NCBI GenBank assembly: GCA_030533405.1
Contig: JAUNJF010000011.1
Location: forward strand, 31,674 to 95,673
Direction of reading: 5' to 3'
Length of the DNA: 64,000 nt
Source: Eubacteriales bacterium
GTDB taxonomy: Bacteria > Bacillota > Clostridia > Lachnospirales > Lachnospiraceae
Shown here: positions 42,921 to 43,434 of the stretch, piece after piece
Position numbering within the stretch: position 1 is the stretch's first letter
How the letters are laid out: every line of letters starts with the position of its first letter
Notes under the pieces: model-generated
Seen by the model: only the letters and a program-made list of their open reading frames with translations
What the model was told of the DNA's origin: nothing
Databases searched by the model: none
Position numbers and translations under genes: made by a program

Positions 42921-43363
42921 GCGTGTGACGGGGTGTTGAAGGTCCTGCGGACCTTCGTTTAGCACTGACCGAAGCAGAGCGTAGACATCGAACCTTCGAG
43001 CCCAGGATTGGGCTCGTTCATACAAAAAAAGGATATCCAACCGGATATCCTTTTTTGCATGAAAAAAGCGCGAGACGGTGCATGGCGTCCAGTGGACGCC
43101 GTCTTATGCACCGACCGAGTCGGAGACGAGACGGATCGAACCTTCGAGCCCAGGATTGGGCTCGTTCATACAAAAAAAAGGATATCCAACCGGATATCCT
43201 TTTTGCACGAAAAAAGCGCGAGACGGTGCATGGCGTCCAGTGGACGCCGTCTTATGCACTGACCGAGTCGGAGACGAGACGGATTGAACCTTCGAGCCCA
43301 GGATTGGGCTCGTTCATGCAAAAAAAGGATATCCAACCGGATATCCTTTTTTGCATGAAAAAA
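42921..43363 (-). repeat. tRNA-Gly-linked structured repeat array 2 (three units)
   Basis: Downstream of the second tRNA-Gly lie three units of 148, 148 and 147 bp (43216-43363, 43068-43215, 42921-43067). Each has AAAGGATATCC/GGATATCCTTT with T-run, GAGCCCA/TGGGCTC, GGTTCGATC (a T-arm-like string), a short hairpin, and GTGCAT/ATGCAC enclosing GGCGTCC/GGACGCC. Each ends with the tRNA tail CCGTCTCGCGC. In the last unit the tail and the inner hairpin have diverged (GAAGGTCC/GGACCTTC), but the stem is kept. Many overlapping ORFs here are artefacts of the repeats. Confidence 0.88.
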
Positions 43364-43434
43364 GCGCGAGACGGGGATCGAACCCGCGACCCCCTCCTTG
43401 GCAAGGAGGTGCTCCACCGCTGAGCCACTCGCGC
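43364..43434 (-). tRNA. tRNA-Gly (GCC anticodon), copy 2
   Basis: All 71 nt are identical to the tRNA at 41759-41829, including anticodon GCC and discriminator U. The flanks also match for about 16 nt on the 5' side (ATGTC-TAAC pattern), suggesting segmental duplication of the tRNA and its repeat tail. Confidence 0.96.

Follow-up and report, generated by a model that had tools for sequence, protein, structure and literature searches.

A small hairpin repeat in tRNA T-loop copies and at other sites in Lachnospiraceae, best read as a mobile element

Results

The window, the whole 64,000-nucleotide stretch of Lachnospiraceae DNA that we analyzed, carries two tRNA-Gly(GCC) genes on the minus strand, each followed by a repeat array. 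The longer array is headed by copy 2 (43363–43434). As the first-pass annotation had stated, three units of 148, 148, and 147 bp lie behind this tRNA. All are on the minus strand, and TRF returned a period of 148 with 96% matches and a score of 732. The accompanying statement that each unit ends in the 11-nt tRNA tail holds exactly for two of the three. On the minus strand, the tail CCGTCTCGCGC occurs without mismatch at 43364–43374 (within the tRNA), 43216–43226, and 43068–43078, and the distal copy at 42921–42931, CCGTCACACGC, differs from it at two positions. Read along the minus strand, the order is tail, A-tract/T-tract palindrome, a hairpin that we call P1 (CGAGCCC..GGGCTCG), a T-loop copy, a small hairpin (P2), a bulged hairpin (P3), and the next tail. 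P2 and P3 form what we call the core. The T-loop copy, GGTTCGATC, had been likened to a T-arm and proved to be this tRNA's own T-loop. The first-pass annotation did not include the related, shorter array that lies downstream of tRNA-Gly copy 1. The features are as follows.

43363–43434, minus strand: intact tRNA-Gly(GCC), head of the longer array (ARAGORN; Rfam RF00005, 64.4 bits)
43216–43363, minus strand: unit 1 (148 bp), with palindrome 43313–43359, P1 43293–43312, T-loop copy about 43282–43290, core 43225–43279 (located by CM R2), and tail 43216–43226
43068–43215, minus strand: unit 2 (148 bp), with palindrome 43175–43204, P1 43145–43164, T-loop copy about 43134–43142, core 43077–43131 (located by CM R2), and tail 43068–43078
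42921–43067, minus strand: unit 3 (147 bp), with palindrome 43025–43056, P1 42997–43016, T-loop copy about 42986–42994, core of the other subtype 42932–42985 (located by CM R2), and tail 42921–42931 (two mismatches)
41758–41829, minus strand: tRNA-Gly(GCC) copy 1 (ARAGORN; Rfam)
41467–41757, minus strand: second, shorter array behind copy 1, consisting of a full unit with core 41623–41677 and a distal unit with core remnant 41490–41546

The core of the distal unit in the longer array differs in sequence from those of the two proximal units. When one unit was folded, its energy was −74.8 kcal/mol, compared to −42.9 kcal/mol (SD 3.6) for shuffled versions (z −8.8), and none of 200 shuffles folded as well. 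The palindrome is present in all three units, one of which was flagged by a simple terminator scan; with this palindrome in every unit, the idea that the array is processed like a tRNA operon is unsupported. At gathering scores, Rfam recognized the two tRNAs and nothing else between 41400 and 43500, and when E values up to 10 were admitted in the same interval, only the tRNAs scored convincingly. The arrays contain no integrase or any other gene. Between them lies an ion channel gene (PF00520, PF07885; 42147–42920) that is convergent with the longer array. Elsewhere in the window, two tandem matches to GA-cis RNA (RF02987) occur on the minus strand at 40563–40758, where there is a 108-bp tandem repeat.

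The core, a hairpin element about 55 nt long, consists of GTCTMCGCTCCGCTYCGGTC followed by the bulged hairpin GGCGC..GACGTCC-ACC-GGACGTC..GCGCC and has no coding capacity. Our model of it (P2 plus P3) has 54 positions and was built from ten copies and later from 75. To obtain the larger alignment, we took 108 matches, removed nine aberrant ones and duplicates to leave 80, and aligned 75. Here, 92.8% of cells pair, versus less than 40% in every slid control, and 14 of the 17 pairs show changes on both sides, in tests whose shuffles ignore relatedness. Two inner P2 pairs that were missing from the first model hold in all 75 sequences, with compensatory changes; a third P2 pair holds in only nine of the 75.

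Searches of related genomes recovered the core in 19 of 26 genomes of the window's genus (E ≤ 0.1), in 131 of 299 genomes of the family (E ≤ 0.01), and in 17 of 291 genomes of the class, 11 of them outside the family. The first-pass annotation had named absence from relatives and lack of covariation as signs that the units are inert local duplications; relatives carry the core, and its covariation is strong. The window's own genome has nine copies: four at the two tRNA-Gly loci, one behind tRNA-Leu(AAG), and four dispersed. The P1 hairpin pattern was found in 19 stretches of named genomes, including those of Anaerosporobacter faecicola, Mobilisporobacter senegalensis, [Clostridium] fimetarium, a Lachnospira sp., and a Roseburia sp. 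Units are retained at the same tRNA across several genera. Within the window's genus, we compared 21 tRNA-Gly loci (one, in genome G020, ends at a contig edge, and that of G006 was read separately). Eleven tRNA-Gly loci of the genus are empty, and elsewhere in it the unit is intact, truncated, or decayed. Loci L014 and L017 cannot be scored as pre-insertion sites because the Gly-type core starts like the tail.

Among 198 distinct core matches in the loci that we fetched, 76 have a tRNA on the same strand less than 600 bp upstream, a share that should not be taken as a target preference, as the loci were chosen partly with model R1, which was built from tRNA-associated copies. In 48 of these 76 copies, at least 10 nt of the neighboring tRNA's own 3′ end are repeated after the core. 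The tRNAs concerned are Gly-GCC, Gly-CCC, Arg-ACG, Leu-TAG, Leu-CAA, Leu-CAG, Leu-AAG, and Lys-TTT. As a control, we compared cores with tRNAs for other amino acids, and tail matches of at least 10 nt occurred in 0.09% of pairs. The other 28 copies comprise those with mismatched tails, truncated or nested ones, some that interrupt a tRNA, and some whose nearby tRNA is unrelated.

The sequence before the core also follows the neighboring tRNA. Of the 48 own-tail copies, 47 have a GTTC-like T-loop start no more than 14 nt ahead of the core, and T-loop letters 57–59 agree with those of the adjacent tRNA in 113 of 125 cases, compared to a mean of 76 after shuffling (68 of 74 versus 53.5 for Gly alone; these shuffles likewise ignore relatedness). 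Since a T-loop start precedes the core and the tRNA's own tail follows it, the tRNA-derived part of a unit is a tRNA 3′ end with the core in its T-loop. The first-pass annotation had described a serially duplicated tRNA 3′ end plus a structured tail. This captured part of the arrangement, although the tRNA part is T-loop, core, and tail together. At chromosomal tRNAs, then, the core sits in a second, partial copy of the tRNA's own 3′ end, beyond the intact tRNA and a terminator-like palindrome, with the layout palindrome, P1, own T-loop, core, and 3′ strand of the own T-stem and acceptor. In three loci (L182, L185, and L189), the core is reversed, within what appears by eye to be a Ser tRNA 3′ end.

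We also examined the hairpins around the units. The longest hairpin within 90 nt behind the tRNA averages 17.0 bp in 35 unit-bearing loci versus 10.4 bp in 11 empty ones (p = 0.0003), where the empty loci all belong to one genus and the hairpin measured is sometimes P1 instead of the terminator-like palindrome. Beyond the last matching tail, another terminator is present in 10 of 35 loci (in one case the window array's own palindrome), compared to two of 35 control windows. The T-loop copy itself is partly palindromic (6 nt or more) in 52% of units versus 22% in the control.

Some tRNA genes are interrupted by the core outside such arrays. In loci L209 and L172, the core occupies the T-loop of an otherwise complete tRNA within a tRNA cluster, and for three tRNAs we could set occupied and empty genes side by side. 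The tRNA-Thr(CGT) gene is empty in viral contig L270 (TTCG-AATC-CGACGGG) and occupied in L172 (TTCG-[core]-CGACGGG). The tRNA-Glu(CTC) gene is occupied in L209 and empty in L175. The tRNA-Tyr gene of L175 is interrupted twice, by an antisense core in the D-arm and a sense core in the T-loop, and that of L209 is uninterrupted. The insertion lies on the 3′ side of the T-loop in these pairs and, once, in the D-arm. The insert measures about 55 nt and comes with the loss of one to four target bases, the exact number varying with the assignment of shared C bases. No target duplication was visible in the four junction pairs. The tRNA cluster in L270 comprises 29 tRNAs; L273, with 18 tRNAs, also encodes a DUF2828/DUF7788 protein and a serine recombinase.

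An interrupted tRNA-Leu(TAG) is also present in a draft genome of the window's genus (G004). A search of that genome returned two other tRNA-Leu(TAG) 3′ parts joined to element ends, and an intact copy was absent from the five loci returned. In two places in this genome (L274 and L276), a near-identical element end is joined to tRNA-Leu(TAG) 3′ parts that extend from the anticodon stem onward. We do not use core removal as a statistical proof of insertion into tRNAs, as ARAGORN read a tRNA after removal of the core in three of 198 copies and after random removals in six of 594. The argument rests instead on the named occupied and empty pairs.

Many copies lie away from tRNAs. Single genomes contain near-identical cores with unrelated flanks, cores are nested inside cores, and the dispersed copies are preceded by G in 72% of cases and followed by C in 78%. 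Locus L104 (1354–3159) has several cores, including two nested composites, in a cassette-like arrangement between consecutive ORFs on the same strand, one of which reads through a core.

We scanned 60 core loci (three sets of 20) with Rfam. Because its models accommodate insertions in loops more readily than in stems, the structured-RNA examples obtained in this way are biased. At one of the 60 (L082, 1451–1627), the hairpin loop of a yjdF (azaaromatic) riboswitch holds a core: 56 nt replace 4, and the core makes up 54 of them, in antisense. Four of the 60 match Clostridiales-1 RNA. In three of these, the core forms 45–57 extra nucleotides in the apical part of an arm, namely arm 2 in L195, arm 3 in L091, and arm 1 in L193; the match in L109 is unclean. 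As it is an extra insertion in differing arms, we rejected the core as a component of Clostridiales-1 RNA.

Over all dispersed copies, loops were not enriched. A hairpin loop with a stem of 6 or more encloses 12 of 106 copies, not above the control (8%), and the junction falls in a predicted hairpin loop in 14 of 112 copies, compared to 68 of 570 random removals (11.9%). The idea that every core is enclosed by an outer stem or hairpin loop was rejected as not above control.

The first-pass annotation had also proposed a REP-like selfish element, which captured part of the core's behavior. The Y1 transposase is the usual partner of REPs. Its family, PF01797, was not found in 10 of 21 core-carrying genomes, where draft genomes can miss genes, and as it was present in the other 11 and in eight of 12 non-carriers, we rejected Y1/RAYT as the general mobilizer. 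A plasmid search with the whole array returned 155 records, and the 10 listed match the tRNA part only. Our searches of the open-access literature turned up no account of such an element, which is weak evidence for novelty.

Discussion

The array is real and its core widespread, and the most plausible reading is a mobile repeat of very small size, located in tRNA loops among other places. The core behaves as a mobile repeat of Lachnospiraceae and some other Clostridia. We consider it probable that it is a non-autonomous, REP/MITE-like hairpin element that resides in a duplicated 3′ end at chromosomal tRNAs and has here been amplified in tandem. Elements whose attachment site is the region from the tRNA T-loop to the 3′ end usually leave a duplicated 3′ end as their scar, and integrative elements may have supplied the duplicated ends in this case as well. 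The core would then have entered the T-loops of these duplicated 3′ ends. Selection would remove insertions into an essential tRNA present in one copy, leaving survivors in duplicated 3′ ends. In the window, the tandem array would then have grown from a unit, probably as tail copies recombined unequally. This explanation needs no cellular function for the array or the core. Insertion of the core alone does not account for P1, the long palindrome, or the partial palindrome in the T-loop copy.

A possible, if doubtful, alternative is that each unit is an attachment site or a minimal cassette of an integrative element. The tail would then serve as the identity block of a tyrosine recombinase and the structured core as its binding region, and tandem arrays would have arisen by accretion and might contain cargo. 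The tails run from the 3′ strand of the T-stem to the end of the tRNA, as is the case for T-loop attachment sites. At two loci, such tRNAs hold cargo: in L067 (668–1412), two units with tRNA-Arg tails (the second tail imperfect) enclose a nucleotidyltransferase/HEPN pair, and in L238 a phage-integrase gene, part of an element with other ORFs, adjoins a tRNA-Gly 3′ fragment and a core unit. However, the window arrays have neither an integrase nor any other gene, and the core inserts without tail duplication in tRNA-Thr, -Glu, and -Tyr, in the riboswitch, and in Clostridiales-1 RNAs. The earlier proposal of an attachment hot spot may account for the origin of the duplicated 3′ end, but the arrays of the window contain no integrase gene.

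It is unlikely, though it would fit some of the sites, that the element, which at about 55 nt would be among the smallest, enters the loops of structured RNAs, with insertion at the RNA level and the tRNA arrays as a by-product. The sites would be the T-loop, the D-arm, the yjdF hairpin, three Clostridiales-1 arms, and the loops of the element's own copies. A reverse-splicing-like insertion followed by copying into DNA, both by host or phage machinery, would fit such a pattern. The lack of loop enrichment over all dispersed copies and the bias of the Rfam-derived examples argue against it.

We regard as improbable a functional non-coding RNA array that is processed from the tRNA transcript or acts on tRNA-Gly, of the kind proposed for the E. 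coli tyrT repeats. Strong core covariation, strong folding of the unit, retention of units at the same tRNA in several genera, and the way T-loop and tail follow the neighboring tRNA could all be expected of such an RNA. Yet a terminator-like palindrome separates the tRNA from the core in the window units, 11 tRNA-Gly loci of the genus are empty while others have truncated or decayed units, and the core occurs at many places other than tRNAs, so its covariation need not mean an RNA function linked to tRNA. Finally, a mini-intron spliced out of tRNA T-loops is very hard to credit: removing the core yields a tRNA read for tRNA-Thr in L172, tRNA-Glu in L209, and tRNA-Leu in L053, and a C-terminal RtcB fragment lies directly behind the interrupted tRNA-Leu(TAG) of L053 (1105–1566), but the RtcB match is limited to profile positions 276–425, tRNA reads are about as frequent after random removals, and the core is also found antisense in a D-arm, in partial tRNA copies unable to form a tRNA, and in non-tRNA DNA.

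If the reading as a mobile hairpin repeat is right, Lachnospiraceae hold a mobile repeat of very small size, which breaks into tRNA genes at a single narrow position and adds to essential tRNA loci tandem copies of the tRNA's own 3′ end. The occupied and empty pairs offer clean junctions for seeking the machinery that mobilizes it.

Relation to known systems

The nearest parallel in layout is the set of repeats of the E. coli tyrT operon (RtT RNA, RF00391), where tandem units behind a tRNA reportedly each end in a copy of the tRNA 3′ end. The window repeats likewise lie behind a tRNA and end in that tRNA's 3′ end. They differ in occurring with other tRNAs in other bacteria and in having a conserved inserted core that also moves elsewhere. 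Identity with RtT RNA was rejected, as RF00391 gave no match at E values up to 10 between 41400 and 43500.

Clostridiales-1 RNA (RF01699), described as a probable RNA in its founding paper (Weinberg, 2010; PMC2864571), shares the bacterial group. The window units do not match RF01699, and in some members of that family the core is present as an additional insertion.

REP and MITE repeats are short, structured, non-coding, dispersed, and non-autonomous, and can be nested or in tandem. Like a REP, the core is a short imperfect palindrome dispersed in many copies; the Y1 transposase of REPs that have a RAYT was not found in 10 of 21 carriers. Like a MITE, it is mobile without a gene of its own, as the occupied and empty pairs indicate. 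The target duplication and terminal inverted repeats of a MITE were not seen for the core, although larger dispersed repeats that carry it can have short inverted ends (as in genome G295). It differs from both in inserting into tRNA T-loops and forming arrays of tRNA 3′ ends.

Rickettsia palindromic elements are short palindromic repeats that can sit inside genes. The core is also short and palindromic and can interrupt genes, in another phylum; we know of no tRNA 3′-end arrays formed by the Rickettsia elements. With the attachment repeats at tRNA 3′ ends, the units share a tRNA 3′ end duplicated from the T-stem on, and they differ from them in that the window inserts are non-coding 148-bp units that carry a core in the T-loop copy and lack a recombinase. 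If our reading is right, the element described here brings together three subjects that are commonly kept separate: REP-like repeats, hot spots of integration at tRNAs, and changes to known structured RNAs by insertion, as in the riboswitch and Clostridiales-1 RNA.
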